The position numbers were made by a program, and so were the translations under genes. From a virus, in IMG/VR virus record IMGVR_UViG_3300045120_000635, positions 1 through 41,111 of that record: DNA of 41,111 bases; one strand, 5' to 3'. Numbering within the stretch: the first letter of the stretch is position 1; each line of letters begins with the position of its first letter. The notes beneath the pieces were generated by a model. That model did not search any database. It was not told the DNA's origin and saw nothing but the letters and a program-made list of their open reading frames with translations. This document shows positions 13,897-37,811 of the stretch, one piece after another.

Positions 13897-13942
13897 GGTC
13901 CACGGGTCCCAGTCGGGCAAACTGGGGGGCGGGACGGTTGCT

Positions 13943-18562: not shown

Positions 18563-19470
18563 CACGGCCCGTTGACCCAGCCGCCGCCGGCGACGCCGAT
18601 ACGCACCACGTTGCCGAAGCCGATGACTCGAGAGCGCCGCGGGCCGAAGATGCCAGCCTGGCGCGAGAACTCTGCCGCGGCCTGGTCGCGGGTGGCCTGC
18701 AGGTTGCCCGCTGCCGCGGCCTGCATGCGAGCCGGGAAGTGGTGCCAGGCTTCGATGTGCGCCGCGCTCGCGGCGTAGTCCAGATCGACCTCGAGCACGT
18801 CGTCGTCGGCGACGGGGCCAGTCGTCGACTCGGCGCCGTTGACCCACGACCAGGCCGGCCGCCAGGTGTCGATCCACATGGCCATGGGCAGCGCGCGGCC
18901 GTAGGTGCCGGTCAGGATCAGGTGGCCGCCGCTCTGGTAGGTATCCCACGGCGCGTCGGCGTAGGGGTCGACCCAGCCGTAGCGCACCCGCTCGATCTGC
19001 CACGCGGCGGTCAGCCAGGGGAACTGGACGGTCAGGTCGAGGCCGCCCCACTGTTGTGTCGGCTGGGCCTGGACGGTATCGGGGAGGACGCACCGTCGCA
19101 GACCAGCCATCACGGACGACCGCAACTCCTGGGCGGGGTCGAGGTGATGAAATTCCACCAGCTCTCCAGGCGCAGGGATCGTCCCCCAGGGACGGTCGGG
19201 GAAGACCCGCCCCTGCTCTGGATCGTAGCTGGAGACTAACCGCTGCCGATCGACGATGTCCATCGGCACCGGCGTACCGTCGAGCAGCACGCCGCGGCGG
19301 AGCAGCCACAGGTTGGTGACCGAGTCGAGGTCGATAACGCTGCGCAGGGCGGGGAAGTTGGCGAAGGTGAAGTTGGCCGTATTGGGCACCTGGCGGTCAG
19401 TGAAAGCGGAGGCGTACGGGCCGACACGCTGGGCTGCCTCCTGCTCCAGTTGCGCCAGGGTGACGCTCAC
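18559..19470 (-). CDS. Virion structural protein, probable head-tail connector
   Basis: A 303-aa protein starting at GTG 19470, overlapping the previous stop. The N-terminal helix ([16 protein letters not shown]) and the segments [39 protein letters not shown] and [30 protein letters not shown] resemble podoviral proteins that sit between capsid and tail genes. The position after the capsid and before the fibre genes supports a connector or adaptor role. No specific family is recognised. Confidence 0.65.
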
Positions 19471-20196: not shown

Positions 20197-21204
20197 CTAG
20201 CCTTCGCCGCCGGTCGTGGCCTTCTGCTGCAAAGCGAAGAATGGGTAGCGCGCGGCCACGGTCGACTGTTGGCGGTTGACCGGGTTGGGGACAGCCCAGG
20301 CGAACCGGGCTATCACACGCAAGGCCACCATGTCCTGCTGGAGCAGGTTGAAGATGATGGCCGAGGTGTTGTCGGTGATGACGCCCGTGTCGAACATCTC
20401 CATGCTGATGTCCTCACGGATGGCCAACATTGATTGGTCCCACTCGCCGCCGATCATCGAGTAGCCGGTGGCGCCGGTGCCGAACTCGACCATGCCCGCG
20501 TTGGAGAAAATGATCGGCTCCCCGTACAGGGTGCCCGTGTTCACCGCTGCCTGCGGGCCGTTGTCGTCGCCCAGCAGGACGAACCCGCCGGTGGTGGTGC
20601 GCATGCCGCGCATCTTGGCCTTGACTTGCTTGCGCGCCCAGAAGCCGCTGACGTCGTAGCCGTCAGCCTCGACCAGGCCCATCGCGGCACTCACGTCGCC
20701 CAGGAAATCCTGGCCAGCCGTGGCGCCGGTCACGAGCACGTTGCCCGCGGCGGCCGCGGCGGTGACGATCGCCGGCGGGAAGGTCGACGGGGCGCCATTG
20801 CCAAAAAATATGGCTTCATCTAACGCCACGCCAAAGGCTTCCGTGATTTTCGGTTTGACCTGGCTCCAGAAGTCGTAGTCGATGTCGTCGAGCAGCGTTT
20901 TGGCGATCGGGACGATGACGGCCATCTCCTCGGCGTTGAGGTAAACGTTATCCCATGCCAGTGACGTGGTCTGCTTCAGGCCACGGTCGCGGGCGTCGAG
21001 CGACGCGCCGGTCAGCCAGTAGGCGATGGGGAGCTGCGTCATCACCGGGATGCGCTGCTGCGCCCTTTTCATTGTCACGTGCGGCATCAGGGTCAACGCG
21101 GCCGACTTGACCTCGATCGACTGGACGATTTCCTTCTGAACGTCCTCAGGAATTAAAGGCCCGGTGCCTGGGGTGACACGGCCGGCGACGGAGTTGTAAG
21201 GCGT
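20197..21204 (-). CDS. Major capsid protein (HK97 fold), non-standard start
   Basis: About 335 aa. HK97-type features include LIPEDVQKEIVQSIEVKSAALTLMPHVTM (N-arm), a P-domain/E-loop region (WDNVYLNAEEMAVIVPIAKTLLDD), AFGVALDEAIFFGNG, a spine-helix region and the late FALQQKATTGG. The conserved N-arm is encoded upstream of the first usable start codon (TTG 21096), and the frame is open back to a TGA at 21220-21222, yet it contains no ATG, GTG or TTG. A GAGGG at 21212-21216 sits 7 nt before an in-frame ACG (21204), giving fMet-PYNSVAGRV. Either ACG starts translation or a one-base error hides an ATG. A short ATG frame at 21221 stops after four codons. Confidence 0.88.
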   Translation of the reverse strand, partial: TPYNSVAGRVTPGTGPLIPEDVQKEIVQSIEVKSAALTLMPHVTMKRAQQRIPVMTQLPIAYWLTGASLDARDRGLKQTTSLAWDNVYLNAEEMAVIVPIAKTLLDDIDYDFWSQVKPKITEAFGVALDEAIFFGNGAPSTFPPAIVTAAAAAGNVLVTGATAGQDFLGDVSAAMGLVEADGYDVSGFWARKQVKAKMRGMRTTTGGFVLLGDDNGPQAAVNTGTLYGEPIIFSNAGMVEFGTGATGYSMIGGEWDQSMLAIREDISMEMFDTGVITDNTSAIIFNLLQQDMVALRVIARFAWAVPNPVNRQQSTVAARYPFFALQQKATTGGEG

Positions 21205-21240: not shown

Positions 21241-21966
21241 CTAGTGGCGGGCCTGTACCTGACCTCGCAGGATGTTTGAGACGTCCCGGTCGGCCGCTGA
21301 GGGAGCGCCTGAGCCGATGAACTCGGGCTCCGCGACACCTCGGCGAAACTCGCCCAGGACCTGTTTGCGGAAGGCAGGATTTTTGCGAAGCTTCTGCTCC
21401 GCGTCTTTCGCGCCTTCGGACTTCCAGTGTTTCTCGAGAGCCTTGAGGCTCTCCTGCACGACGAGCCTGCGCCCCTCGAGCCCGATCCCCGCTCCCTCGA
21501 GGGCCATGATGCGTTTCTGTTCTGCCTCGGGCAGCGACAGGATCACGGGGTCGACGGTGAAGCGATCGTGTGTGGCGCCGACATTGCCCAGCCACTGGGT
21601 GGTCTGGGTGTCCATCTCGGCGGCCTGCTCGGCCTTGCGTTCTTCCGCGGCGAATTGCCACGGGTCCTCGTCACGCAGCCTGCGCCGTTCCGCAGCCCGC
21701 GCGGCTTCCGACCGCTTGGCCTCGCGCCGATCCGTCTCGGCCTGGACCTTTCTGTCCAACTCCTCCTGCGTCAGCGTGATCGCCGGACGCTCGGCTGGCG
21801 CAGGGGCCTGGTCCTCGGCCTCAGACTCCGGGCTCCCCCTCCCGCGAAACAATCGCTGGAGAAAATTACGGGAAGCGGGTGCCTGAGACTCTGAACCCGC
21901 CGCCTCGACAGGCTGGGCATCCGTGGATGGCTCAACGCTCGAAGGCTCGGGTGATTGTGGCTGCAT
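21241..21966 (-). CDS. Probable capsid scaffolding protein
   Basis: A 241-aa protein with a GAGAGG ribosome site before ATG 21966. It has a disordered acidic/Pro-rich N-terminus, a charged helical middle (ELDRKVQAETDRREAKRSEAARAAERRRL) and a C-terminal helical part (ALEKHWKSEGAKDAEQKLRKNPAFRKQVLGEFRRG). This composition and its position just before the major capsid gene are typical of scaffolding proteins. There is no protease signature, so a maturation protease is not evident in this genome. Confidence 0.75.
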   Translation of the reverse strand: MQPQSPEPSSVEPSTDAQPVEAAGSESQAPASRNFLQRLFRGRGSPESEAEDQAPAPAERPAITLTQEELDRKVQAETDRREAKRSEAARAAERRRLRDEDPWQFAAEERKAEQAAEMDTQTTQWLGNVGATHDRFTVDPVILSLPEAEQKRIMALEGAGIGLEGRRLVVQESLKALEKHWKSEGAKDAEQKLRKNPAFRKQVLGEFRRGVAEPEFIGSGAPSAADRDVSNILRGQVQARH

Positions 21967-21984: not shown

Positions 21985-24417
21985 TTAGGACAACGGGGCC
22001 GTCCCCATCGCGGGAGACAGCGGGCTGTACGGCAGCAGCCCGTAGGGGCCGGTGCCCTGGGCAAGGCCGGGGAATGTCTGTTGCGCCGCGACCGGCGGCG
22101 GAGGAGGTGCCGCTGCCGGTGGCGGGGTGCCGTGGTTCACCGTGACCGTGCCGTCCGGAGCGACGGTCGTCGTCGCGCCCGGCAACTGGTAGCGATTGCG
22201 CTGCAAGGCCTGGGTGTAGTCGTAGTTGGGCGCCTGCGTCGGCAGTCCGGGCTGCGCCTGCACGCCGGCGGCCTGGCTCATGCCCGCGGCCGCCGTCGGC
22301 GACAGGTGCGCCAGCGCCTGGTTGGTGACCTGCTGCGACAACTGTGTCAGGTCGGGCATCTGGTACGTCAATGCACTCGACCAGTCGATACCCGTGGCCG
22401 GCTTGCCCGTCGTCCACGCGTCGGCCAGTTGACCGAACGCTTTCCCAAAACCCGGCCCCACCATGTTCGGCAACTGGGCCTTGTAGGCCTCGACGGCATT
22501 GCTCCCAGCCGCCTGCGCCGTGGCGTAGTTGGCGCGCTGCTGCTCGTCCTGGGCGCGCTGCTCAGCGCTGAGCTTGAGTTGGGTGTCGATCTGCTTCTGC
22601 TGCTGGGCCTGCTGGATTTCGGCCTTGGCCGGCTCCATGGTGGAGTCCCACCACTGGTCGTAGTCTCGCTGGGCCTGGTCCTGGGTGTAGCCGCCGGTGC
22701 CGATTTTGGCCTGCAGCTCGGTGATCTTGCTGCTGGCCATCTGCGCGAGCTGCGCGGACCGCTGGGCCGGATCGATCGCCGTGTAGTTCTGATTCTCGAC
22801 CCACTGCACCGAGCCGTCGGGCATACGCTGGGCGATCTTGGGCTGGTCGGTGGAGGTGGCGATCGACGTCGGCTCGCTGGCGCCGGGCATCGGCGTCGCG
22901 GGCTGGGTGGTGTCGACGTCGTACGCGTCGTCGCTGCCGCCGCGATAGGTGACGTGATAGATCTTGCCGTTGATGACCTTGGTGCCGGGTTCGCCAGCCT
23001 GGTGGATGGCGCCGACATTGGCGTGGGCCTGTTTGGCCGCGTCGGTGAACGGGATCGGGGTGAAGGTCGAGTCGGGATCGAAGGTACCGTCGCCGCGCGA
23101 GATCTGCTGATACAGGTAGCCGTCGGGAGCCAGGATGAGCTGCTTCTCACCCTTGGGCAGATTCGCGTCGGGCACGCCCGCGGCCGGGGCGTAGGTGCCG
23201 TCCGCTTTCTGGACGTAGACGGTGCCTTTCTGGGTGATCGAGCCCGGCCCTTTCGGCGCCGCGGGGATGGGCGCCATGCCAGGCATCGGCTTGAAGACGT
23301 GGTCGGTGGGATCGGTGCCGTAATAGACCGTCGAGCCGTCGGGCTGCGGGATTGGCTTCGGGTCGCCCCACCCTTTATTGGCCGCCGGGATGGTCGGCAG
23401 CCCGGGGACCGGTTTGAAGCCGCCGCCCGGATCTTTTGGGTCGATCCCGACCCAGGACGTCGACCCGTCCTTATTGTCGACCTGGCGAACTTCCGTCCAG
23501 TTCTGGGGCACCGTTGGCGCGCCGGGCACGGGCTCGAAGACGCCCGAGCCGGTATTGGTGCCCCAGATCACCCCGCCAATCGTCATCAGTCCGGTGTGAC
23601 CGAGCTGGTCTTTCGTCTGGACGTCCTTGATGCCGGTCGGGGTGTAGCTGAACTGGGCGCCCGGCCCAGGGTCGTCCTGGGTAGTACTGCCGTCCGCGCC
23701 CTGCCACGTCTTGCTGAGCGTGAACTGCTTGATCTCGTTGGTCTGCGGGTTGCGGGCGTTGACGATGTACTCGTTCTTAGGCGTGGTCAGTGTCGCCGAA
23801 ACGGTGGGGTCCGGATTGGTCGGGTCGTACAGCGGGTTGACCTTGGTGTCCTGCACCTGGATCGGCTGGACCCCGACCATCTGCCAGCCCTCGTAACCGC
23901 CGCTGCGCAGCATGTCGTTGACGACCCACTGCTCGTAGCCGGGCGTACCCGGCGCTGGCCGCGCGGGTCCAAGCACCGGCCCCCCGGTTGTCGTCCCGGT
24001 TGCCGGTCCGGTTGCCGGCGCTCCGCCGCCAGTGTTGGTGACGCCCTTCGGGTAGACCGTCCCGCCCGTCGCGGGAGCAGGCTGTCCACCTGGTGTGTAC
24101 GGGGTGGTGGGCTGATACACCCCTGGCGGACTTGGCCGCGGCGCCGGGTTGGTCACGCCTGGCGGGTATTGCGCCGGGCCATTCGCCGCCGGTGCGGGCG
24201 TGGGCGTGGGCTGGTAGATCGACGACGGGGTCGGTTGCGGGCCGGGGTTGGTGACACCGGGCGGGTACTGGGTTTTCGGCACCTCGCGCACGATGATCCC
24301 GGTGGCCGGGTCGGTCACCGCGATCATGCCCGTGTCGTTGTTGACCATCACCTGACGGCCATCGGGCAACGTCTCGACGTGGTAGCGCGCCGCGCCCTGT
24401 TGCTTGACGTCGACCAT
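21985..24417 (-). CDS. Large repeat-containing internal virion protein candidate
   Basis: An 810-aa protein with AGGAGGC before ATG 24417. It opens with a beta-rich domain and Pro/Gly-rich YPPGVTNP repeats (three or four copies). Its centre is an array of about 45-aa units with the consensus xDGSTxxxGxDPxDxxFKPxPGxxxIP (about residues 300-450), like short beta blades. The C-terminal third is helical and Gln/Ala-rich (AKAEIQQAQQQKQIDTQLKLSAEQRAQDEQQRANYATAQAAGSN). Lying between the 2010-aa polyvalent protein and the scaffold, it is probably an ejection or internal protein. No family is recognised. Confidence 0.7.
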   Translation of the reverse strand: MVDVKQQGAARYHVETLPDGRQVMVNNDTGMIAVTDPATGIIVREVPKTQYPPGVTNPGPQPTPSSIYQPTPTPAPAANGPAQYPPGVTNPAPRPSPPGVYQPTTPYTPGGQPAPATGGTVYPKGVTNTGGGAPATGPATGTTTGGPVLGPARPAPGTPGYEQWVVNDMLRSGGYEGWQMVGVQPIQVQDTKVNPLYDPTNPDPTVSATLTTPKNEYIVNARNPQTNEIKQFTLSKTWQGADGSTTQDDPGPGAQFSYTPTGIKDVQTKDQLGHTGLMTIGGVIWGTNTGSGVFEPVPGAPTVPQNWTEVRQVDNKDGSTSWVGIDPKDPGGGFKPVPGLPTIPAANKGWGDPKPIPQPDGSTVYYGTDPTDHVFKPMPGMAPIPAAPKGPGSITQKGTVYVQKADGTYAPAAGVPDANLPKGEKQLILAPDGYLYQQISRGDGTFDPDSTFTPIPFTDAAKQAHANVGAIHQAGEPGTKVINGKIYHVTYRGGSDDAYDVDTTQPATPMPGASEPTSIATSTDQPKIAQRMPDGSVQWVENQNYTAIDPAQRSAQLAQMASSKITELQAKIGTGGYTQDQAQRDYDQWWDSTMEPAKAEIQQAQQQKQIDTQLKLSAEQRAQDEQQRANYATAQAAGSNAVEAYKAQLPNMVGPGFGKAFGQLADAWTTGKPATGIDWSSALTYQMPDLTQLSQQVTNQALAHLSPTAAAGMSQAAGVQAQPGLPTQAPNYDYTQALQRNRYQLPGATTTVAPDGTVTVNHGTPPPAAAPPPPPVAAQQTFPGLAQGTGPYGLLPYSPLSPAMGTAPLS

Positions 24418-24426
24418 AACTGCCTC

Positions 24427-27400
24427 CTATGCCATCTTTGCGGCGACTTGCTGGCGCGCGGTTTGCGCTCGAGCGATACGGTCGCTGGCGGGAATCGACC
24501 GCAAGACTTCCTGCTGAGCTCGCTGCCGCGCGATGCCCGTGGTGTACGTGAGCAGCCGCTGCTTGGTTCCGGAGTTGCCGTTCTGCCACGTAGGGGTGCG
24601 CACCGACCGCTGGATAGCATCGTCGATATAGCGGTTTGTCAACTCCTGCAGGTGGGCCTGCTCGGCCTGCAACAACGGCAGTTTGCCGATCGTGCCCGAC
24701 ACCTGGGAGGGCTGCCACTCGATGCCAGCATCCCGCAGCGCACGCGCCGCGGACGAGGTGAGGATCTCGGCGCGGGCGTTCTCGAGCTCCTGGCCGCCGG
24801 TGCCGCGCACGAAGCGACTGGCCAGCGACCCCACCAGCGGTAGCTCAGACGCGGTGCCGGGGACGCGCGCCTCGCGGCGGGTAGCCGCATCCACGATGTT
24901 GAGGCCTGTCTGGCCCAGCCCGCCCAGCATGTCTTTGATCGCCCAATCGACCTGAGACGGGTGGATCCGGTCCAACTGGTGGCCAGGCAAACTGGTGATG
25001 GCGTTCTCGAGGATCGGGGCAACGGCGTGTCCCAGGTTCGACGCGTTCGTGTCGCTGTACTGGTTGGCGATCGTGCTGCCGCGGAACAGGTCCCGGTTCA
25101 TCCCCAACTGGATCGCGGTGCCAACACCCGGTTGCGCGGCCCCGCCGAGCTGGTTGATGTCGTTGATCGGACTCAATTCCGTGGCGAGGCTCTTGATCAG
25201 GTCGCCCGCGCTCTGTGGCGTTCCGTGTCCAGAGAGACGCTTGAAACTCTCGCGGCCGGCTTCGACGAAGGGCATGAACTCGTTCGGGATCGGCAGGAAA
25301 TACTTCTGCGGCACGCGGTTCCCCTGTGCATCCCGCGGGGCCTCGCGTGGATCCATGAGCACGATGCCGAGCCGTTTCAGGTAGTCGGGCACGTCCTCGT
25401 AGTCTTTCGCGCGCTGCGGGTCCGAGTAGTTGTACGCCTCGGATGCCGCGGCCGGCGCGCCGAGCAACGTCGTCCCGGCGAGGAGTGCGCTACCGGGGTG
25501 CTGCTTGATGAGACGGCCGAGTTGCGCCGGCGCCTGCGTGCCGACGTTGAAGAACGGGATGTAGCGGTTCAACTCTTTACTGAACTGGCCGCCACGGCTG
25601 AAGTCGGTCGTGACCTCGCGCGCCTGCCGCATGGCTTCCTGCGTCGTCGCCCCGCGCTTGAGGGCCATGCGGTACGTGGCCACGCGCGGCACCTGTTCCA
25701 GTCGATTGCCGATGCCTTTGACCCAGCCGAAGGCAGCGTCGCTCGCGAGCTGCCTCAAATCGCCAGCATTGCGCACCGTGAACACGTGCTGGCGCGTGAG
25801 TTTGCGCAACGCTTCCTCAGCCTGAGCGGGAGTCATGCCGCCGCCGACACCACCCCCACCGTGCATGGCGCCGCCCGCCGCCTCGAGCTCGCGCAAGCCC
25901 TCGCTGGTGTTCCGTCCGCTGAACAGGCCCCCCATGTTTTCGGCCAGAGAGCGCGCGAACTCGCTGGTAGCGGCTGGCCCTAACCCCAGGTTGTGGCCGA
26001 TAGCCACGCGGCCGCCCATGCCCAGCGCCAGTGCCGCGGCGATCTTCTGGCCACGGTTCGGGTCGTCAGGATCCGTCAGCGCGGCCGTCAATGCTGCCGG
26101 CCCGAAGTGGATCCCGGTGCTCGCCAGGCCTTGCCTGACGCCACCCTCGGACATCATGCGCATGGCGTAGCCAAGCGTGTCGCGCGCCAGGTTGACCGGG
26201 ACGAACCCGGGGTTACGCTGCACCGCAGTTTCGCGCACCACCTTCGCGGGCGCCATGGCCAGCGTCTGCAGCCAGTGGTGGTCGCCGCTGGCCGGGGTGA
26301 TCTGGTCGAGGGCCGACTTCAGCACCTTGTTGCTGGTGACCCAGTCCTGACGCTCGCCGTCGACCATGGCACTGATTTTCGACTCGTTGCCGCGCAGCGT
26401 GTAGTCGGGCTCGAGGAGTTTGCCGTCCTTGCCGCCCGCATCGACGTACTCACGGACGTTGTTGGAGATCCTGCGCATGATCGTGCTGTCGTCGCCGAGC
26501 CCCTTGATCAACGCCGAGCCAAGGTCGTTCTTCTTGATGCCCGCCTTGTGGCTGTACACCTCGCGCACCATCGCCGCGACGTGGTTCTCCTTGACGGCAC
26601 TGGTGCCCTCGGGCGTGTAGGTGTGCAGTCCGGGAGTGCCCGCGTCGAGACGGCCCCCGCGCGGCAGACCGACACCGGGACGGTCGTCGCTCTGGAACTC
26701 GCTCACGTTCGTCGGGGTCCAGTGGTCGTACCTTTTGAGCAGACCGTCCATGGCGGCCTGGTCGATCTGGCCGTGATCGACTTTCTCCTGCAGCATCTGC
26801 TTGCGCAGGTTCTGCAGGCTGTCGCTCGCGGCACTGAATTTCTGCATCACCTCGGGCGATTGCCTTGCCTCGAGGTCGGACAGTTCTTTCAGCACGTCCT
26901 CGTGGTGCTGGACTTCGCCGTTCAGTCCCGACGAAAGACGCCCGTTGAGCTGCGCAAAGTACTGGGCTCTGGCCGCCGCCGGGAGATCCTCCTGGGCTTG
27001 CGTTACGTCGGCCTGCGCCTTCTTGACGCGTTCGCCCGCGGCCGCCACCGCGTCGGCCAGCCCTTGCTGGCCGCGCGCCCGAGCATTCTGGAGTCGCTCG
27101 AGGTTCTGCTGCTCGTAGCGCAGTTTGACGCTGGCGCCGGAGTAGGCCGGGGTGGGGTTGTAACGCGGCTGTTGCGCCGCGGCTCGGTCGGCCGCGGTCT
27201 GCGCCCGCTGCTCGATGGTGGCGCCCCTGGCTCCCGACCGTTCGCCGATCGCGGCGCGCAGAGATGCCGCACGGTCCTCGGCACGCCCCACCTGACGTCC
27301 AAGCACGCCCAGGTACGGGTTGTCGGGGTTGGCGTCGTACAGCTTCGCGTACTTCTGGTTCAGCAGCCGGGCGTTGTTCTCGGCAATCGTCAGGTCGCGC

Positions 27401-30400
27401 AGTTCAGGGTGCGTCACCGTGGTTGCCGTCGGCGAGCTCACCACCCGTTCGCGGGCCGCGTCCGCGTTCGCCTGGCTGGCGGCTTCAGTGGCCGCCTCGA
27501 GTTGCGCCCGCGACTCGTCGACACGCCGTTGCGCGGCACTCAAACTGATCGAGTCACGCGTCCGTGGATTGGCCGCGGCGGCCAGCGCCTCGTCGTGGGC
27601 CTGGTTGGCCGCGTTCCAGTCGTCGAGCGCGCTGCTCAGCCGCTGCTCAGTGCTGGGGGCGATGCCCGCCTCGAGCATCTGCTGCTCGGCCTGCCTGGCC
27701 ATCCCCTCGTTGATCGACCGGGTGGTGAGCAACGCCTCCCGTCGGTGGAAGTCGGCCATGTTTTCGTTGGGGATGGCGCGCACCGGCTCGAAGGCAGGGT
27801 CGAGCATGGCATGCGCCTGTCCCGCGGGATCCACGCGAGCGAGCAGGCTGACGCGCTCGGAATCCGTCAGCGGCGAGCCCTTGCGCGCGGCCATCTCCTT
27901 TTCGATGGTGCCCATGTCGACGCCGCTATCGGTGAACTGGCGGGTCAACGAATCGAGCGCTTCCTGGCCGCGCGTACGACTCAGTCCGCTGGCGAGGCTG
28001 GTGTCGCCGTCGGCGAGGATCTGCTGCAGGATGCCGTTGTCCTCGGCCGTCGGCACGTTCGAGGGCAGGAACCCGCGCTCGCGGAACCCGTCTTCGATGG
28101 CTTGCGCCACGGGGTGAAGCGCTTCCGGAATGTCCTGGCGCGGGTCGATGCCGAAGCGGGCCAGGCCACTGGGGCTGAGATTTGAACGCAGCGTTTCGTC
28201 CGTCCTGGACAGCAGAGGATTGACATCCTCGGCGGCCTCGCCAGCACCGCCCAGTATTTTTGGCACGCTCGAGAGAATGGCTTCGAGGACGCTGCCCTCG
28301 GGACCTTTCGAGAACGGGTTCAGTTCGCGCAGGCTGCGGCCTGGCTGCAGGAACGCCAGTTGCCCGCCCAGGCCAGGCAGCGGAATGCCGCGCCGCTGGA
28401 TATCGGCGAGGGCACGGTCGGCGGCTTCCTGCGGACTCTGGGGCGGACGGTTGTACAGGCCCGTCACCTGGCCCAGCGTGTCCTGCTGCCCGGTGATCGG
28501 GTTGCTCGTCAGTTTCTGGATCATGTCCGCGGCGCGCTGCTGCACCGACGGCTGCGCGTTCTGATCCTGCTGGCCCTGGTCGCTGCCGTCACCTTTCGGC
28601 CCGCCCGGCGGCACGAGGCCGGCCGCGCCCAGAGCGCTGGAGATGGCGTTGCCGATCAGGTTGCCGAGATTCTCGAGGCCGCCCGAACGAGCAACCACGC
28701 CGGGCTGCTGCGGCTGGGCGATGCCGACAGTAGCGGACGTGGTGTCCGTCAGGTCGGACAAGGGCGGCGACTGCGTCGGCAGGTGGGCGATCTCCACCGC
28801 TCGGTCCAACTGCTGCACCTGCGGGTCGTTGCTCTGTGGACGGGACGGCGTGGTCGGCGTGCGGAACCCGCTGAAGACGCTGGTGGCGGCCTGCTTGATC
28901 GAGTCGAGCGCGTCGAGCGGGTTCTGGCTGGTGCTCGGGTTGTCGATCGTCGGATGGTTGGCGAACAGCGCCCCCTGCACCGCGCCCATCTCGTTCTGCA
29001 TCTGCGACAGCGTCATCCACTCGCTGCCGTTCTTCAGGTCGAGGCCACTCCGTCCAACGTGGAACTGCTGGGTCTGCGGGTTGTAGCCGTCGGCGTAGAA
29101 GTAATGACCCGCCGTGCTAATCGTGACCGGGTTACCCGTCTGGGCTTCGCGGGCAATCGCCGCGGGGTCGTTGCCGACGAGTTTGGTGGGAATGCCCATC
29201 TTCTCGAGGAGCTGCTGCTCGCTCGAGATACCGGCCATGCCCTGCTGCGACGTCCAGCCCACGGTTTTTGCCAGGTCGGTGGCTTCCCTGAGGGTGGGGT
29301 TGCGGCCGTAGGCCTGTGCAAAACGCACGGCTGCCGCGGGACCACAGGCTGAATACGCCTCGTCGGTGGTGAGCTGCGGGTCGTTGAACTGGCTCTGATC
29401 CATAGCGGTCTGCCGCGGCGCACCGAGTGACACCTGTTGTTGCGGAGTCGGCTGGGACCCGGTCTGATTGGGACGGCTGTTACCCAGGATCTGGCTGACG
29501 TAGGTCTGCGACTCCTGGTACGGCTTGCCGCTGTCCCAGGCCTGCACCGCGCCGCCGCCACCGTTGTAGGCGATGAGGGCTTTCGACCAGTCGCCGCCGT
29601 ACTGCTTGAGCAGGCTCGCCATCAGGTTGGCCGCGTAGTCGAGGCTGGCTTTCGGGTCCCACGTGTTCACGCCGGGGTGGTACTGCGGCACGATCTGGGC
29701 GATGCCCTGCGCCCCCGCGCTCGAGCCCGCGTTCGGGTTGTAGCCGGACTCCTGCTGGATCTGCGCGGCGAAGATGTCCGGGCTGATGCCCGCGGCGCTG
29801 GCCGCCTGTCGGGCGTAGTTCTGCAGGTCGCCGGGAGGCGCCTGGTTGACGGCTACGACGGCGGGCGCGGTCGGGTCGAACGCCACGCTGGTGGTGCTGG
29901 AGGTCGTTGTCGGCGAGGGCGTCGTCGACGGAGCCCACACCGGCGCGGGCGGGGTGATTGGCTGGATGGACGGCACGCCCATGACCCCGGGCGGCGGACC
30001 CGGTGGCCCCGACGGGCCGGGGGGTGGGCCGGAGATTGGCGGGATGGGTTGCGGCCCCGTGAGATCCGGCGGCGCGATCGGTGGCGCGGGCGTAATCGTC
30101 GGCTGCTCCGGCGCCGACGGCAAGCCGATAGGCGGCGCCATCGGTGGTGCTGGGGCCGGGGTGGGCGCCGGCACCGGAGGTGAGATCGGCGCCGGCTGCC
30201 CGAGCGGCAATTGTGGCAGAGCCGGGATCTGCGGCATCGCCGGCAATTGCGGCAGCGTCGGCGTGGGCAACTGGCCGAGGATGCTCGAGGAGGCGATTTC
30301 GGACACCTCGAAACCGGGCATTCCTAAGCCCTGGATCCGCGACATGTTGTTCTGGGCGAACGAGAACTGGTCGACGCGCGCCTGGTTCTGCTGCGCGAAC

Positions 30401-30459
30401 TGGTTCGACTGGTACTGGCGGTACTCGTCCGATGGAACGTCTGGCAGCGCGTCGGGCAT
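24427..30459 (-). CDS. 2010-aa polyvalent virion protein: transglycosylase + cysteine peptidase + LPD-like domains
   Basis: The largest protein of the phage, probably carried in the virion and ejected into the host. A Pro-rich linker (about 60-200) precedes an SLT lytic transglycosylase domain (about 212-325; AAQIQQESGYNPNA with catalytic E237, then AGAQGIAQIVP and ALIAYNGGGGAV). A C39/papain-like peptidase domain follows (about 350-500; C372 in YSACGPAAAVRF, H452 in TAGHYFYADGY). Long coiled-coil segments span about 900-1250. Near 1420, NPGFVPVNLARDTLGYAM and the following region resemble large polyvalent protein-associated (LPD38-like) domains. The gene begins directly after the previous stop. 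Similar giant proteins occur in Bcep22-like podoviruses. The LPD assignment is from memory of motifs. Confidence 0.85.
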   Translation of the reverse strand: MPDALPDVPSDEYRQYQSNQFAQQNQARVDQFSFAQNNMSRIQGLGMPGFEVSEIASSSILGQLPTPTLPQLPAMPQIPALPQLPLGQPAPISPPVPAPTPAPAPPMAPPIGLPSAPEQPTITPAPPIAPPDLTGPQPIPPISGPPPGPSGPPGPPPGVMGVPSIQPITPPAPVWAPSTTPSPTTTSSTTSVAFDPTAPAVVAVNQAPPGDLQNYARQAASAAGISPDIFAAQIQQESGYNPNAGSSAGAQGIAQIVPQYHPGVNTWDPKASLDYAANLMASLLKQYGGDWSKALIAYNGGGGAVQAWDSGKPYQESQTYVSQILGNSRPNQTGSQPTPQQQVSLGAPRQTAMDQSQFNDPQLTTDEAYSACGPAAAVRFAQAYGRNPTLREATDLAKTVGWTSQQGMAGISSEQQLLEKMGIPTKLVGNDPAAIAREAQTGNPVTISTAGHYFYADGYNPQTQQFHVGRSGLDLKNGSEWMTLSQMQNEMGAVQGALFANHPTIDNPSTSQNPLDALDSIKQAATSVFSGFRTPTTPSRPQSNDPQVQQLDRAVEIAHLPTQSPPLSDLTDTTSATVGIAQPQQPGVVARSGGLENLGNLIGNAISSALGAAGLVPPGGPKGDGSDQGQQDQNAQPSVQQRAADMIQKLTSNPITGQQDTLGQVTGLYNRPPQSPQEAADRALADIQRRGIPLPGLGGQLAFLQPGRSLRELNPFSKGPEGSVLEAILSSVPKILGGAGEAAEDVNPLLSRTDETLRSNLSPSGLARFGIDPRQDIPEALHPVAQAIEDGFRERGFLPSNVPTAEDNGILQQILADGDTSLASGLSRTRGQEALDSLTRQFTDSGVDMGTIEKEMAARKGSPLTDSERVSLLARVDPAGQAHAMLDPAFEPVRAIPNENMADFHRREALLTTRSINEGMARQAEQQMLEAGIAPSTEQRLSSALDDWNAANQAHDEALAAAANPRTRDSISLSAAQRRVDESRAQLEAATEAASQANADAARERVVSSPTATTVTHPELRDLTIAENNARLLNQKYAKLYDANPDNPYLGVLGRQVGRAEDRAASLRAAIGERSGARGATIEQRAQTAADRAAAQQPRYNPTPAYSGASVKLRYEQQNLERLQNARARGQQGLADAVAAAGERVKKAQADVTQAQEDLPAAARAQYFAQLNGRLSSGLNGEVQHHEDVLKELSDLEARQSPEVMQKFSAASDSLQNLRKQMLQEKVDHGQIDQAAMDGLLKRYDHWTPTNVSEFQSDDRPGVGLPRGGRLDAGTPGLHTYTPEGTSAVKENHVAAMVREVYSHKAGIKKNDLGSALIKGLGDDSTIMRRISNNVREYVDAGGKDGKLLEPDYTLRGNESKISAMVDGERQDWVTSNKVLKSALDQITPASGDHHWLQTLAMAPAKVVRETAVQRNPGFVPVNLARDTLGYAMRMMSEGGVRQGLASTGIHFGPAALTAALTDPDDPNRGQKIAAALALGMGGRVAIGHNLGLGPAATSEFARSLAENMGGLFSGRNTSEGLRELEAAGGAMHGGGGVGGGMTPAQAEEALRKLTRQHVFTVRNAGDLRQLASDAAFGWVKGIGNRLEQVPRVATYRMALKRGATTQEAMRQAREVTTDFSRGGQFSKELNRYIPFFNVGTQAPAQLGRLIKQHPGSALLAGTTLLGAPAAASEAYNYSDPQRAKDYEDVPDYLKRLGIVLMDPREAPRDAQGNRVPQKYFLPIPNEFMPFVEAGRESFKRLSGHGTPQSAGDLIKSLATELSPINDINQLGGAAQPGVGTAIQLGMNRDLFRGSTIANQYSDTNASNLGHAVAPILENAITSLPGHQLDRIHPSQVDWAIKDMLGGLGQTGLNIVDAATRREARVPGTASELPLVGSLASRFVRGTGGQELENARAEILTSSAARALRDAGIEWQPSQVSGTIGKLPLLQAEQAHLQELTNRYIDDAIQRSVRTPTWQNGNSGTKQRLLTYTTGIARQRAQQEVLRSIPASDRIARAQTARQQVAAKMA

Positions 30460-32091
30460 TTACTGCAACTTGAAGGAACCGCTCGACGGTGAATTGGTGG
30501 CGTACTTGGGCAGGCTCTGGTTGAAGAGCGCCTGCGCGTCGTCCTTGTTGTAACCCTGCGCTTCCCACGTGCCGAGCAGCATCTGCTGCTGACTCGGGGT
30601 GAGGGCGTTCCAGGTTTGCGGTGCCATCTGATTGGGCGCCACCAGACTGTTCATGGCTGCCTGCGAGGACGGGTCCTGGGTCCCGGTGGCCGAGCCGACG
30701 AACGAGTTCAGATCGACCGGTGTGGGTGCGACGCCCGTGGTGGCCCCGCCGCCGGGGATGTACTGGCCAGCCGCCGCGGCGACGAGGTCCTTCATCCCGC
30801 CTGGCGTGGCACCGAGGACCTGCTGGTACTTGGCGTAATCCGCCGGTCCGCGCAGGTTGGTCATCATGGACAGGTAGTTCTGGGCCGCGGTCTGCTGCGC
30901 CTGCCACTGAGCCAGCGCCTGTTTCTGGGCATCGATCTGTTGCTGGAACGCCTGCTGGTTGCCGGCCAGGGTCTGGATCGGCTGGCCGTTCTCGTAGCCG
31001 GGAGGCGCCCCCGTCGGGGTGCCGGCCACCGTGGACGGCTGGGTGCCCACGGTAGCCGGGTTCACGGGGCTGGCGGCCTGGGCGAACGCCGCGTCGGGCA
31101 CGGTCATGATGCCCTGGCCAGCCTGGATAGCCTGGTAGATCGCCGGGTTGCTGGCATCGCCCGGGGTGACGGTGCCGTTGGGTCCGACAACCCCGAACTG
31201 ATTGCCAGCGGTGCGTACCACCGTGCCGGGCGGGTACTGCTGAAGCATGGGGTTTCCGCCGGCGGCGCTCGGCGCCGGCGCGACCTGAACCTTTGAGGGG
31301 TCGAAGGTATTGTTGGCCGCGTTCCAGCCGGCGGCGGCCTGCTGAAGCGTACTGGGGCTCTCGCCGGGGGCAAACACCCAGCCGCGCGACTGCATCAGCA
31401 CCTGCTGGTAAGCCGGATTGGCCAGCGACGGGTTGCGCGCCAGCAGCGCCATCTGGTCCGCGGTCAAACCACCGGCCGAGCTCGGCGACGTGGCACCGGG
31501 CATCGAGCCGCCAGTCGGCGGGGTATAGCTGTACGGGGTGTACCAGCCCGTGAGTTGAGCTGCGGTGTTGGCCTCGTCGAAGCCCTGTTTCTGGCCGGCC
31601 AGCGTTTGCTGGCCCTGTTGCGGCGTGCCCCACACCCCGAACTGCTGCGCATAACTGACCATCGTCGACGCCTGCTGAGCGGCGATGTCGGCCAACTGCT
31701 TGATGGCTTGCTGCGTCGGCTGGCCCTGGTAGGTGCCGGTGACGCCGGCCTGGGCGAGCTCGCTGGCGATCGCCTGGGCGGCTTTCTGGTACGCCTCGGT
31801 GTCACTGTCCAGGGCGAGCTTGGCGTTGTAGTACGTCTGCAGCGCGTTCGCCTGCAGGTTGCTCAGAATCATCTGATCGACCTGCGGATTGGTGCCGACC
31901 GGGCCAGTCGGGTTCGCGGGCGTGCTCGGACTCGAGGGAGAACTGGGCGTGCTGGGACTACTACCGCCAGTGGATGGCGGCGGACCGCTGTACCCCGGCG
32001 CGGAGTAATAGCCGTACGACCCGCCAGACGGATTCGGATTCGAATCGGCCTGAATCGGGGCGCCACCATTGGGATTGGGGAAGTACGGCAT
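30460..32091 (-). CDS. Gln/Ala-rich internal virion protein candidate
   Basis: A 543-aa protein starting at ATG 32091, 2 nt after the previous stop. It has a disordered Gly/Pro/Ser N-terminus (~60 aa), helical Gln/Ala-rich segments (ANALQTYYNAKLALDSDTEAYQKAAQAIASELAQAG, FQQQIDAQKQALAQWQAQQTAAQN), a beta insert (GTVVRTAGNQFGVVGPNGTVT) and a C-terminal helical part. This is the composition of podoviral ejection proteins. It sits between the muramidase-like gene and the 2010-aa protein. No family is recognised. Confidence 0.7.
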   Translation of the reverse strand: MPYFPNPNGGAPIQADSNPNPSGGSYGYYSAPGYSGPPPSTGGSSPSTPSSPSSPSTPANPTGPVGTNPQVDQMILSNLQANALQTYYNAKLALDSDTEAYQKAAQAIASELAQAGVTGTYQGQPTQQAIKQLADIAAQQASTMVSYAQQFGVWGTPQQGQQTLAGQKQGFDEANTAAQLTGWYTPYSYTPPTGGSMPGATSPSSAGGLTADQMALLARNPSLANPAYQQVLMQSRGWVFAPGESPSTLQQAAAGWNAANNTFDPSKVQVAPAPSAAGGNPMLQQYPPGTVVRTAGNQFGVVGPNGTVTPGDASNPAIYQAIQAGQGIMTVPDAAFAQAASPVNPATVGTQPSTVAGTPTGAPPGYENGQPIQTLAGNQQAFQQQIDAQKQALAQWQAQQTAAQNYLSMMTNLRGPADYAKYQQVLGATPGGMKDLVAAAAGQYIPGGGATTGVAPTPVDLNSFVGSATGTQDPSSQAAMNSLVAPNQMAPQTWNALTPSQQQMLLGTWEAQGYNKDDAQALFNQSLPKYATNSPSSGSFKLQ

Positions 32092-32093
32092 AG

Positions 32094-33065
32094 CTAGGCG
32101 GTCCTCCGTGGTAGTCCCTGTCGCGCGGCGACTCTGGCTGGAATCGAGCCGTACCACTGCGCCCAGCCCTGGGGGTTCGCTACGGCTTGATCCAGGGCAT
32201 AGTCGGTGGCGTCCTTCCACGCGCGCGGGTCGCCGGGCTGCCAGCCCGTTTTCTGCGTGAAGTCGTTGCCCATGCCCGCGACGCTGCCGTACTGCTCGTA
32301 CGGCGTGCCCGCCCCGCCGTAGTGCAACTGGAACGGCCACCACGACTGCCCGGTGGGGAACGTGCCCTGCTGAGCCGGCGAGTCGAAGCGCCCGGTGGCG
32401 GGGTTGGTGCCCTCGTGGAGCGCGACGGCTACGGCCGTGTTGGGATCGATACCGCGCTGCTGAGCGGCATCCCGAATGTAGGCGACGATGTCGTCGTGGG
32501 ACGGCTGAGCGTTGCCAAGGTGCGTCTGCAGGTCGGCATCGGGCGGCTGGTAATTGGGCAGCGGCACGACCGCTTCAGGCCCGGCCTCGCCGATGAGGGC
32601 GAGGGTGGGTTTGGTCACGATACCGCCCTGGGCCATCGCGGGGATAATCGGGGTGATGCGCGGCACATTCGGGGTGATCATGCCGCGCGGGATGAGCGGC
32701 GCAGGCACGGGCGAGGCGGCTTCGGGCGGGGTGGCCTGGGTAGCGACCTCCACCGCGCCTGGCGGGGTCGGCAACCTGAGGCTCGGGTAGGCCTTGATGA
32801 CGGCTTTGTACACCTGGGTGAAGCTCTGCGGTCCCAGTCGCTGGATCTGCTGCTGGCGGCCCTGCAGATTGGGCGTGCCGTCGGGATTAAAGAGCTGGTC
32901 GCGGTAATACTGGAGCTTCTGCTCCTCGCTCAGGTCGGCCGAAAACGGGGCGACGCCCTGGGGGGCCATGGCGGCCGCGATTCTGGTCGACTCCTGGTCG
33001 AGCCACAACGCCAGGTCGGTGGCCACCGAGTCGAGCACAGTCTGGGATTTCGGCAACGTGGGCAT
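32094..33065 (-). CDS. Virion muramidase-like protein with tape-measure-type motif
   Basis: A 323-aa protein. The middle contains AQGGIVTKPTLALIGEAGPEAVVPL, the GG-V-x-P-T-x-x-x-x-GE-AGPEAV-PL signature usually found near the end of tail tape-measure proteins. A lysozyme/transglycosylase-like domain follows (about 205-320): IRDAAQQRGIDPNTAVAVALHEGTNPATG with a likely catalytic Glu, then WWPFQLHYGG, GMGNDFT and TDYALDQAVANPQGWAQWYG. The N-terminal ~150 residues are helical and Pro-rich. It overlaps the portal stop by 1 nt. It probably opens the wall during DNA entry. Confidence 0.75.
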   Translation of the reverse strand: MPTLPKSQTVLDSVATDLALWLDQESTRIAAAMAPQGVAPFSADLSEEQKLQYYRDQLFNPDGTPNLQGRQQQIQRLGPQSFTQVYKAVIKAYPSLRLPTPPGAVEVATQATPPEAASPVPAPLIPRGMITPNVPRITPIIPAMAQGGIVTKPTLALIGEAGPEAVVPLPNYQPPDADLQTHLGNAQPSHDDIVAYIRDAAQQRGIDPNTAVAVALHEGTNPATGRFDSPAQQGTFPTGQSWWPFQLHYGGAGTPYEQYGSVAGMGNDFTQKTGWQPGDPRAWKDATDYALDQAVANPQGWAQWYGSIPARVAARQGLPRRTA

Positions 33066-35185
33066 CAGCGCCCCGGCCCCGGCGGCAGCATGTTCGGCGG
33101 GGGCATCGGCACGACCGGGGCGCCGGGGATCCCACCGGGAGGCATGGCGCCGCCCACGCCGGGGGGCGGCGGCGGAGCGATGGGAAGACCCTGGCCGGGG
33201 GTGGGCACGGGGTTGCCGGGCATGCCGCCCATCGGTCCGGTCGGGGGCGTGCCAGGGGTGCCGGGGACGCCGCTCGGCGGCCCCATCGCCGGACCGCCGG
33301 CCATTTCCTGCAGGTCGGGCGTACCGGGCGCGTTCATCTTCTGGGCCTGGATGGTGCCCAGTTTTTGGAACACGGCCGTCTTCAACTGCTGCTGGATCTC
33401 GGGGCTCTGCTTCAGGTCGTGCAACAGCCAACTCTGCTCGACCTCGTCGGGGTTGGCGCCCGCTTCGGTGACGGCGTCCTCGTAGGTGATCAACTTCAAC
33501 TGCATCTTCTCGCCGATGGCGCGGATCTCGATGATCTCGTTGGACGGCGTGCTGGGGCTGAGCTTGACGCGGTAGTGGTGGACCCCGTCGAGGTCGTCCG
33601 GCCCGATGTGCAGCCAGGTGCCCTTGGTCTGTCCGGCGCCGCGGCCGCCCTGTTTGCCGGGCTGTTCGCCCCAGGCATACACCGTCTCGGAGATCCGCGA
33701 CTCGATCAGCCAGGACTCGAAGCCGGTGCGTTCGGCGAGGGCGATCTCGGCGTTGCTGACGATCGGGTTGAACGCCAGCCCGGCGAGATAGGCGGCCTGG
33801 TTCAGGGCGTAGCCCGACTGGTCGGCGCCCACCGCGCCGCTGAAGGCGGCGGGCATGGCGCGTTCGATCAACTGCTGGATGTTGGTCAGCAGTTTGCTCA
33901 GGTCGGGACCGCCCGACGGCTGATTGACCGGGGCGATGTCGAACGGATACAGCTTGCCCGGCTCGATACGCGAGGCCGTCGCCGCTTCCTTGCCGTCGAT
34001 GCCGTACGGCAGGCCCGGAATCGCGTTGGGGTTCTGCGTCTCTTTCCAGGCCGGGAAACCGGTCATGTACGCGCTGTTGCCCTGGATCGTCAGCAGACTG
34101 TCGAGCAGCCGGAACAACTGCAGGTAGCCGTACAGCACGCTCAAGCCAGCGTGCTCGGGCAGACGGCTCGCCGTGGTGATGCCGAGGGCGTGGAAGTACG
34201 GACCTCTGAGGGTGTGCAGGTACGGGTCGCCGTAACTGTGCGGAGTGACCTTGCACAGGGTGCCCTGGTCGCGTCCCTTTGCTGCCTGGTTAGGGCCGGC
34301 CAGGCACACCACCTGCACGTGCTCGTCCCAGGCCTCGATACACCGCAGGTTGGTGGAGCCGGCGGTCTTCATGATGTGCGCCCACTCCGGCCGCGCCAAC
34401 TGCGCCGCGCGCGGATCGATGCCGCTCCACGTCTTCGGCGACACCACGTTCCCACTGCTGTCGAGCGCCGCACCGAACCGCTCCAGCGCCTCGAGATACG
34501 GCACGTCCTTGATCTCGACCGAGCTCGTAAACCCGTTCTCGTTCTTGGTGTAGTAGAAGGTTTCGGGCGGCACGTCGGTGGTCGCGATCGGATACGGCAA
34601 CTGCAGTTTCAGATTTTCGGTGTGTTTGTCGTACGCCATGTCCTGGGCGTGCTGATCGAGCCCGTCATCCTCGAGCGACTTCTGGTACTCCTCGGCAGAG
34701 TCGGAGTACGTGCTCCACACCGCGGCGCTCCGCTCGAGCGTCTTGAGGATGCCCTCACCCTTGACGGCCAGAGACCACATGAACAATCGTGCCAACTGCC
34801 TGCGGGCCTCGTGCTCCTGCCGCTGCCACGACGCCTCGAAGAAGCGCTCCCTGCGGGTCGAGTTCTCCTGGTAGACGTCGCCGAAACCCACCGGCCGAAA
34901 CTGGATGGTGGGCGGATTGACGCTCAGTGCCGCGGCCACGTTCTGGGCGATGTGCAGCGCCAGGTTGCTCCTGACCTCGATCGCCGTCTTCCGGTACGCC
35001 TCCGGGATTTCGACCGGGAAATTCTGGAACAACGTCTTGTCGATGTCGGCGTACAGGGTGTTGCGATCGTGAAAATCGCGTTCGAGTTGCTCGGCGAGAT
35101 CCATCGTCTGTCGATGCATGACCTCGTCGCCGTCCGCGCTTTTGCCCCAGTTGGACGGCGGCGTGGGCCGATCGAGGACTGCCAT
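33065..35185 (-). CDS. Portal protein
   Basis: A 706-aa protein downstream of the terminase. Portal-like features include an N-terminal helical region (MDLAEQLERDFHDRNTLYADIDKTLF, RSNLALHIAQNVAAALSVNPP), a central domain (KGEGILKTLERSAAVW... PPETFYYTKNENGFTSSVEIKDVPY), and a long helix region (LSVLYGYLQLFRLLDSLLTIQGNSAY... PDLSKLLTNIQQLIERAMPAAFSG). The last ~90 residues are Gly/Pro-rich and unlike a portal core. The large size suits podoviral portals that lack separate small connectors. ATG 35185 overlaps the previous stop as TGATG. Confidence 0.83.
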   Translation of the reverse strand: MAVLDRPTPPSNWGKSADGDEVMHRQTMDLAEQLERDFHDRNTLYADIDKTLFQNFPVEIPEAYRKTAIEVRSNLALHIAQNVAAALSVNPPTIQFRPVGFGDVYQENSTRRERFFEASWQRQEHEARRQLARLFMWSLAVKGEGILKTLERSAAVWSTYSDSAEEYQKSLEDDGLDQHAQDMAYDKHTENLKLQLPYPIATTDVPPETFYYTKNENGFTSSVEIKDVPYLEALERFGAALDSSGNVVSPKTWSGIDPRAAQLARPEWAHIMKTAGSTNLRCIEAWDEHVQVVCLAGPNQAAKGRDQGTLCKVTPHSYGDPYLHTLRGPYFHALGITTASRLPEHAGLSVLYGYLQLFRLLDSLLTIQGNSAYMTGFPAWKETQNPNAIPGLPYGIDGKEAATASRIEPGKLYPFDIAPVNQPSGGPDLSKLLTNIQQLIERAMPAAFSGAVGADQSGYALNQAAYLAGLAFNPIVSNAEIALAERTGFESWLIESRISETVYAWGEQPGKQGGRGAGQTKGTWLHIGPDDLDGVHHYRVKLSPSTPSNEIIEIRAIGEKMQLKLITYEDAVTEAGANPDEVEQSWLLHDLKQSPEIQQQLKTAVFQKLGTIQAQKMNAPGTPDLQEMAGGPAMGPPSGVPGTPGTPPTGPMGGMPGNPVPTPGQGLPIAPPPPPGVGGAMPPGGIPGAPVVPMPPPNMLPPGPGR

Positions 35186-35679: not shown

Positions 35680-37026
35680 CTAGCCGAACCTCAAGGGCGT
35701 CGCCTCGCGCGGCTTCGGCGGCTGGGCCTCAGCCGCCAGCCCGTAGCGCAGCGCGTCCGGCGCGTGGTCTTCGGTCTTCTGGCTGCCAATCTTGTCGGCC
35801 ACGTCCTCGGGATCGAGCGGATCCACCACCATGCTGGGCAACGTGCGCTGCAAATTCGGCGCGGCCCCCTGCAGCAGGTGCAGCCTCGGCGACCCCTGGT
35901 CAGTCGCCAGCGCACGCCGACAGATCGCCCACCCCTGCTTTCGGCTATTCATGCCCGGATATACCGGGTTGACCCCGTGCGCCCAGTACACCGCGGCAAT
36001 GCTCGGCCGCTGCTGCTCTGTCCTGAGATTGAACATGCTCGGATCCAGAATTTTGAGCAGCAGCTTCTCGTCGCCGCTCGCCTCGACAATGCGCTGCGCC
36101 TGCTGCTCGTCCCTGAGCCCCGCGGCGTACAACTCGCGGTACACGAAAATGTGCTTCGTCTCCGGCTCCCTGGCGAACCACAAACAGCAGAACGGCACCG
36201 CGAAGCCGTAGTCGACCGCCAGCCACCTCGGCCACTCGTCGGGGATCTCGAAACGCGGCACCACATGCACCGACGGGTCCCACTCCGTGAAATACATCCC
36301 CTCGGCCGCTACCCACTCCCCTAGCCTGAGCCGCTGCTTCAGATACCCCCGCAACGAGTCGAGCCCGGCAATGTACGTCTCCCCGAACGCCGTCCACTGC
36401 CCACCCTGCCACAACAACGGGTTGTCCTCATGCCGACTCTCGACCAGCTCGCACTCACCCGCATTACACCGCTGCTTCAACCAGTGGTCCGGCGGCCCCG
36501 GGTTACAGTCGGCGATCAACTGCTGATAACTGAGCACCCCGTTCCGTAAGCCGCGCAGCAGCATCGCCCAGTCGTCTTCCTCGAGCTCGGTGGCTTCCTG
36601 GACGTACACGCAGTCGAATTCCGTCGAGCCGATCTTCTCCGGATCGTCCAGGCCCGCCACCATGATCCTGGCCCCGCTCGGATAGCGGTATTCCTGGTCC
36701 CCCTCGTGAAACCTGACCTGATTCGGCCGCGGCAATACCTTGTTCTCGAACGTCGCCATCGCACTCTGCGTCAGGCTCTTCCGTGTCTTCCGCACGATCG
36801 CCGCCCGTATCGGCTTCTGCATCGCGATCAGATTCAATTTCTCCAGACAGGCCCGACTCTTCCCCGTCCCGGCCGGTCCCGCCAGCAACACTTCCCTGGC
36901 CCTCGACTTGAACAACTGCAGCGCTGCCCCGTGCGGCTGGTACGGCGCCTCCTCCGGCTTCGTCTCCGTCCCTTGCTCGACCGTCGCCGGTACCCCACCC
37001 TGCCCGAGCTTCAGACTGGCCGGCAT
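35680..37026 (-). CDS. terL: Terminase large subunit
   Basis: A 448-aa DNA-packaging motor. The ATPase domain has Walker A GPAGTGKS (50-57), the IRAAIVRKTRKSL segment and Walker B VYVQE (140-144) with the catalytic Glu, then a coupling-like region. The nuclease domain begins with RWLAVDYGFAVPFCCLWF (RNase H-like first Asp), has a central Asp in LKILDPSM and ends with HAPDALRYGL, the usual third acidic site. The length is normal. The C-terminal ALRYGLAAE and a Pro-rich end fit phage TerL. ATG 37026 has only a weak GCAGAG upstream; about 300 nt of non-coding DNA separate it from the small subunit. Confidence 0.92.
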   Translation of the reverse strand: MPASLKLGQGGVPATVEQGTETKPEEAPYQPHGAALQLFKSRAREVLLAGPAGTGKSRACLEKLNLIAMQKPIRAAIVRKTRKSLTQSAMATFENKVLPRPNQVRFHEGDQEYRYPSGARIMVAGLDDPEKIGSTEFDCVYVQEATELEEDDWAMLLRGLRNGVLSYQQLIADCNPGPPDHWLKQRCNAGECELVESRHEDNPLLWQGGQWTAFGETYIAGLDSLRGYLKQRLRLGEWVAAEGMYFTEWDPSVHVVPRFEIPDEWPRWLAVDYGFAVPFCCLWFAREPETKHIFVYRELYAAGLRDEQQAQRIVEASGDEKLLLKILDPSMFNLRTEQQRPSIAAVYWAHGVNPVYPGMNSRKQGWAICRRALATDQGSPRLHLLQGAAPNLQRTLPSMVVDPLDPEDVADKIGSQKTEDHAPDALRYGLAAEAQPPKPREATPLRFG

Positions 37027-37331: not shown

Positions 37332-37335
37332 CTAC
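37307..37335 (-). terminator. Hairpin at the end of the small terminase gene
   Basis: GTAGGTGCC (37307-37315) and GGCACCTAC (37327-37335) form a perfect 9-bp stem with an 11-nt loop; the stop codon of the small terminase gene lies in one arm. The following minus-strand bases (GTTTACC) are a poor T-tract, so termination would be weak. It may stabilise mRNA or attenuate late transcription instead. Confidence 0.45.
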
Positions 37336-37811
37336 AGCACACTCGCCGGATCGATCCCAGCAATGGTCTTGACGACCTGAGCGACCGTCACGTCCAGCTT
37401 CTCGCGGTACGTATCCGGTTTCCGGGCTCGCAGGAGAAGCATGAGAAGTTGGTCGGAGTATTCAATCTTCGCATCGGTACCGACCGGTTCCCCATGCCAG
37501 TAAGAGGTGCGTGTATAGGGTGAGCCTTCTACTCCGCGTCGCCAGGCTTCTTTTTCGAGGCGTTCGGTAGCCGCTTCGCCGGCGAGACGGAACGCGGCGA
37601 GAAACTCCGGATCGTGTTCTTGCCATCCATAGACAGTTGTTCTGCCGATGTTGGCTTGTTCGCATGCGTAACTGATATTTGCCCATTGACGGTATGACTC
37701 TAGAAACGCGTGCTTGGCGTGTTCACTCTGTACGTGAGTCTTCCGGGGTTGGCCGCGCACGTAACGTTGGCGGGGCTGAGCGAGGGACAGTTCATCTGAC
37801 ATTGACGCCAT
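37332..37811 (-). CDS. Terminase small subunit-like DNA-binding protein
   Basis: A protein of up to 159 aa. HAKHAFLESYRQWANISYACEQANIGRTTVYGWQEHDPEFLAAF is the helix-turn-helix of small terminases (N-I-S-x-A-C-x-x-x-N-I-x-R-T-T-V-Y-x-W). The second half has an EKEAWRRGVEGSPYTRTSYWHGEPVGTDAKIEYSDQLLMLLLRARKPDTYREKLDV segment, very typical of phage TerS-like proteins. It would recognise the packaging site. Tandem starts at 37811 and 37802 are both possible, and neither has a clear ribosome site. It heads the late operon. Confidence 0.87.
   Translation of the reverse strand: MASMSDELSLAQPRQRYVRGQPRKTHVQSEHAKHAFLESYRQWANISYACEQANIGRTTVYGWQEHDPEFLAAFRLAGEAATERLEKEAWRRGVEGSPYTRTSYWHGEPVGTDAKIEYSDQLLMLLLRARKPDTYREKLDVTVAQVVKTIAGIDPASVL

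Follow-up and report, generated by a model that had tools for sequence, protein, structure and literature searches.

Among the closest described counterparts of the protein examined here is gp16 of phage T7, in which an N-terminal SLT domain is followed by a very long body; to our knowledge, gp16 has no peptidase beside its SLT domain. In phage phi29, the virion lysin gp13 combines a lysozyme domain with an M23-type peptidase and acts as a tail-associated D,D-endopeptidase (PMC9662197). Mycobacteriophage endolysins, which serve exit from the host, contain interchangeable N-terminal peptidase domains, including M23, RipA-type, and the C39-like N5, beside glycosidases or amidases (PMC3314691). 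The LPD38 polyvalent proteins described by Iyer et al. (2017) are giant multidomain proteins encoded in the head gene cluster, with a wall-cutting domain and a C-terminal LPD38 domain; the peptidases named in the 2017 catalogue of polyvalent proteins belong to four superfamilies (zincin, assemblin-like, DD, and LonC), with no papain-like or C39 type among them (PMC5512222).

The window, i.e., the whole stretch of 41,111 nucleotides analyzed, is a 41 kb linear virus record from an uncultured, soil-type phage. It encodes a 2010-aa protein (referred to below as the giant protein) that shares features with each of these systems. Like gp16, it has an SLT domain near the N-terminus and then a very long body, but the body is of the LPD38 type and matched the gp16 families in none of our searches, and the gene lies between the portal and scaffold genes. 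Like phi29 gp13, it joins a glycan cutter to a peptide cutter, although the latter is a C39-like cysteine peptidase instead of an M23 domain and is fused to a 1500-aa body; M23 domains are the direct alternative to C39 in the same slot of related giant proteins. As in the N5 endolysins, likened here by their description, a C39-like peptidase occupies an exchangeable slot, whereas the giant protein would function in entry. With the LPD38 polyvalent proteins it has in common its size, multidomain architecture, location in the head gene cluster, C-terminal LPD38 domain, and wall-cutting domain. We consider it probable that the giant protein is an ejection-type virion protein in which an N-terminal two-enzyme wall cutter precedes an LPD38 body.

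The gene is located at 24427..30459. The initial annotation had noted an open reading frame here, which does exist and encodes 2010 aa, but it belongs to the minus strand, as the plus strand of 24427-30459 is interrupted by stops; all features of the giant protein given below are likewise on the minus strand. The ATG at 30459 is taken as the true start because close relatives share the start MPxLPDV. A proline-rich low-complexity linker (residues 60-200, 29860..30282, recognized by its composition of 36% Pro) is followed by an SLT lytic transglycosylase domain (residues 215-316, 29512..29817), identified by PF01464 (E = 8.8e-20, 70.9 bits vs. a cut-off of 21.3), by an ES motif (Glu237, within QQESGYNP, kept among SLT-type relatives), and by AYNGG. 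This domain is a predicted lytic transglycosylase that would cut glycan. Next is the C39-like cysteine peptidase domain (about residues 355-506, 28942..29397), where Peptidase_C39_2 (PF13529) matches residues 366-468 with E = 3.8e-5 (24.7 bits) in the full-length protein and 7e-6 (27.1 bits) in the N-terminal piece, against a cut-off of 24; 42 of 47 relatives match PF13529 at E 0.01. The earlier reading of two different cutting domains near the N-terminus is therefore confirmed by Pfam.

The remainder of the protein includes an Ala/Arg/Leu/Gln-rich stretch delimited by composition and alignment (residues about 820-1215, 26815..28002), probably helical as judged from its composition and sequence, and a C-terminal body (residues 1211-2010, 24430..26829) that is mostly helical in a low-confidence model (pLDDT 56). 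Within this body lies the LPD38 domain (residues 1685-1876, 24832..25407; PF18857, E = 9.5e-10, 39.3 bits vs. a cut-off of 27), such that the SLT, Peptidase_C39_2, and LPD38 matches all exceed the curated Pfam cut-offs. The initial annotation was right about the presence of LPD-type sequence, but not about its plural, as a single LPD38 domain was found. In the PHROGs collection, the SLT part matches a T7 gp16-type internal virion protein (PHROG 342), and the C-terminal part matches two unnamed giant phage families. The domains found in the giant protein are wall-directed enzymes and LPD38 only. The middle part of four large relatives yielded no further effector domain, and an ART-PolyVal match in one relative (L029) was weak and below the cut-off.

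An AlphaFold2 model of residues 200-515, built from 36 aligned sequences, had a mean pLDDT of 76.9, with mostly 80-95 in blocks of the peptidase domain. Its best Foldseek matches in the PDB were C39 peptidase domains, namely ComA (5xe8, TM 0.73 by target length) and PCAT1; other matches were papain-like CdiA-type toxin domains (8ssk, 9l5u), phytochelatin synthase, and 3zua, which is listed as a C39-like domain, while the SLT part matched T7 gp16 (9jyy/7eyb) and Slt. These scores are modest because the query contains two domains, and a sequence search of the PDB with the C39 profile gave no confident relative. The peptidase domain is thus modeled with a papain/C39 fold, with the same order of Cys-helix and His-strand as in the Peptidase_C39_2 and C39 domains of ComA and PCAT1; it differs from these in that the canonical Asp position is not conserved and there is no fusion to a transporter.

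The predicted nucleophile, Cys372 (29344..29346), is invariant in 86/86 filled rows of the alignment, and the predicted catalytic base, His452 (29104..29106), in 87/87. Among the 87 distinct C39 domains, Asp457, Asn443, Gln357, and Ser471 likewise show no variation in the rows that extend to them. At residue 470, which corresponds to the usual C39 Asp position according to an inferred register, the domains have R (59), Q (23), S (3), K (1), or A (1); the invariant D457 and S471 and the nearly invariant H467 and D474 are alternative candidates for the third residue. The Cys-His-Asp triad that had been anticipated within residues 350-520 is accordingly upheld in part: the domain has the expected fold, with Cys and His invariant, but Arg or Gln stands where Asp would be expected. 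A classical triad is not shown by the alignment, and Cys and His are the predicted catalytic residues.

The substitution of the expected Asp by Arg, Gln, Ser, Lys, or Ala, and the match to 3zua, could suggest that the C39-like fold is kept without catalysis, for binding the wall or assembly partners. We regard this as very improbable, since Cys and His are invariant throughout the 87 distinct domains, Cys-His dyad enzymes are documented among papain-like proteins (PMC10318531), and the domain is replaced by catalytic peptidase families in relatives. Two relatives contain intein sequences in this part of the protein. L007:2-616 (+) contains the C-terminal portion of a LAGLIDADG intein (LAGLIDADG_3, E = 6.5e-10), whose end, ...ITWCGN, directly adjoins CGPAAAV, so that the insertion point apparently lies immediately ahead of the predicted catalytic Cys; in the N-terminal part of the L024 ORF 3-4775 (+), a sequence resembling an intein C-terminus (...GVWCPTTRNQTWVARRAGMVTITGN, followed by T) interrupts the SLT domain, recognized by eye and not by a profile.

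Few sequences are closely related to the giant protein over its full length. A search by conserved positions yielded 49 loci, and a C39-only profile yielded 161, 80 of them retained. Conservation of the reading frame and of the C39 domain extends to 87 distinct relatives, with identities of 61-99% among the first 46 aligned. At least two phage lineages carry the giant protein: portal identity between the second lineage and the window is 21-24%, and no terminase or capsid similarity was detected, vs. 67-77% (about 73%) identity of the C39 domain. Fourfold-degenerate sites agree between the lineages at a frequency of 0.485, compared to 0.394 expected from composition, and are therefore near saturation. 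Together with the conservation in 87 distinct relatives, this argues that the ORF and its C39 domain are not due to chance, and that the high C39 identity reflects constraint; recent horizontal transfer was rejected as its cause on the same ground. The C39 domain is under strong purifying selection, and is far more conserved than the adjoining glycosidases.

Such very strong conservation between phage lineages that are otherwise unrelated suggests that the target is fixed, and the fold matches include CdiA-type toxin domains, as might be expected if the peptidase were an injected effector that cuts a specific host protein in the periplasm or cytoplasm, similarly to papain-like contact-dependent toxins. 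This possibility seems quite unlikely to us, because a wall glycosidase accompanies the C39-like domain in every case and a second wall peptidase in none, and because an effector would not be expected to be swapped for generic wall peptidases.

Such swaps were seen when the portals of both lineages were used as the search anchor and the giant gene downstream was inspected, which removes the bias of a C39 query. Among 95 giant proteins with a visible N-terminal part, the peptidase was C39 in 77, M23 in 17, and NlpC/P60 in one. Every one of them has one wall glycosidase and exactly one peptidase, and two peptidases occur in 0/95; this tally would leave out peptidase-free giant proteins, but the lists of C39-negative loci showed none among readable N-termini. 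As some loci are close to each other, the 95 are not independent cases, and the changes of peptidase type on the portal trees, at least six on one and at least seven on the other (at least 13 in total), are the better measure. Pfam confirms M23 in L139, L145, L174, and L212, and NlpC/P60 in L171. Regardless of peptidase type, the giant proteins are homologous outside the slot; for example, L212 (M23) and L008 (C39) are 64% identical over 1364 aa. An idea considered during the analysis, that C39 is never swapped and hence has a special target, was rejected when the portal-anchored search revealed the M23 and NlpC/P60 replacements.

The glycosidase also changes, at least 16 times on each of the two portal trees, with types labeled roughly by best seed match. 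L002 (SLT) and L003 (glucosaminidase), for instance, are 97-99% identical after the wall domain. The glycosidases adjoining C39 are SLT, glucosaminidase, or other lysozyme-like domains (some of the latter assigned by sequence resemblance only), located mostly before C39 and in a few cases after it; the order of glycosidase and peptidase can flip for both C39 and M23. Apparent relatives without a wall domain were rejected as such, as the domain was found after C39, was detected by Pfam where the seed search had missed it, or was cut off by the contig end or an intein.

Because the peptidase type repeatedly changes among C39, M23, and NlpC/P60, C39 appears to occupy a wall-peptidase slot. This favors cleavage of wall peptides together with the transglycosylase, one of two roles offered by the initial annotation, as a glycosidase always adjoins the peptidase and M23 or NlpC/P60 takes its place in homologous proteins. 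The other role, processing of the polyprotein after ejection, is less favored. In this alternative, the C39-like domain would resemble the metallopeptidases found in other polyvalent proteins, releasing the wall cutter or the body by cleavage of the giant protein, either prior to packaging or once ejection has taken place. Embedded peptidases are frequent in polyvalent proteins and are thought to process them (PMC5512222), members of the C39 family cut leader sequences (PMC10318531), and the catalytic residues of the C39-like domain are conserved; nonetheless, we consider self-processing unlikely, given that M23 and NlpC/P60 fill the slot in relatives, that the flanks show no conserved cleavage motif and the region after C39 diverges, and that peptidase and glycosidase may occur in either order. 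Both self-processing and an injected effector explain the exchange of peptidases less well than cleavage of wall peptides does. In established systems, M23 and NlpC/P60 domains that adjoin glycosidases cut the peptides of peptidoglycan. Given the precedents of phi29 gp13 and the mycobacteriophage endolysins, C39 as a wall-peptide cutter is also the simplest reading.

Three observations are counterpoints to a wall-peptide cutter: a wall hydrolase is not usually so much more conserved than the adjoining glycosidases, the residue at the third catalytic position differs from the usual Asp, and the nearest solved C39 peptidases cleave proteins, not wall peptides. We tentatively propose, as a possibility well short of an even chance, that the C39-like domain acts as a wall peptidase whose active site is non-classical (Cys-His plus a polar residue that is not Asp) and whose linkage specificity lies outside the range of M23 and NlpC/P60. 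If true, this would explain both its exchangeability and its higher conservation relative to the glycosidases.

The genes around the giant protein are in the order TerS-TerL-portal-like-323-aa-543-aa-giant-810-aa-putative scaffold-capsid on the minus strand. The terminase small subunit (37332..37811; PHROG 4044, E = 4.5e-25) and large subunit (35680..37026; Pfam Terminase_3, PHROG 2) are followed by a portal-like gene (33065..35185), which is without a family match and was assigned by its position and the gene order in relatives. The 323-aa gene (32094..33065) matches tape measure PHROGs, and encodes a tape-measure-like GGIVTKPTLALIGEAGPEAVVPL motif and, at about residues 185-323, another putative wall-cutting domain, which shares 52-56% identity with the wall domain at the N-terminus of the giant proteins L043, L036, and L048; by this similarity, wall-cutting domains are predicted to move between neighboring genes. 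The 543-aa gene before the giant gene (30460..32091) and the 810-aa gene after it (21985..24417) are conserved in the cluster. Further downstream are a putative scaffold gene (21241..21966), without a family match and assigned by position and conservation, and the major capsid protein gene (20197..21096; PHROG 10, E = 2e-33), whose true start may lie upstream. As the same gene order recurs in relatives, it is this order that makes the giant protein a likely virion protein.

In the mechanism that we infer, the SLT domain would cut glycan strands at the entry site, the C39-like cysteine peptidase would cut wall peptides at the same site, and the long, mostly helical LPD38 body would line or accompany the DNA path, as the T7 gp16 body does. 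Both the ejection of the protein and the function of its LPD38 body are suggested by analogy with T7 gp16 (PMC8954989) and by the proposal made for polyvalent proteins (PMC5512222).

Elsewhere in the window, a large serine integrase (7114-9003, +) indicates that the phage is probably temperate, and a C-terminal-like piece of a cytosine DNA methyltransferase at the contig end (40627-41109, -) suggests that the virus record is incomplete. Collagen-like Gly-X-Y repeats at 17738-19309 (-) probably belong to a tail fibre. In the tail-fibre/lysis region, a small protein (13456-14073, -) contains TCSACAT and YYHWVAFRG...NLWISNS, which recall the Cys-His-Asn arrangement of papain-like proteins, and gave no Pfam, phage, or C39-profile match. 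The best terminase match is 39% identical and from a Thermobifida phage. Searches with the C39 domain gave no match in cultured phages and plasmids, the portal and tail genes had no cultured relative at the limits set, and in a scan of genome contigs the sole match was to an unrelated SLT sequence from Lentibacillus.

Our literature search, of incomplete coverage, found no C39-like domain in a virion or polyvalent protein, although C39-like domains are reported in phage endolysins. The C39-like type extends the list of peptidases in the published polyvalent-protein catalogue. For this large, apparently uncultured phage group, the results describe an assembly rule in which one glycan cutter and exactly one peptide cutter, each exchanged many times, front a giant entry protein. 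This rule makes the function of an uncharacterized cysteine peptidase testable, and offers many natural domain pairs for the study of how phages breach the wall.
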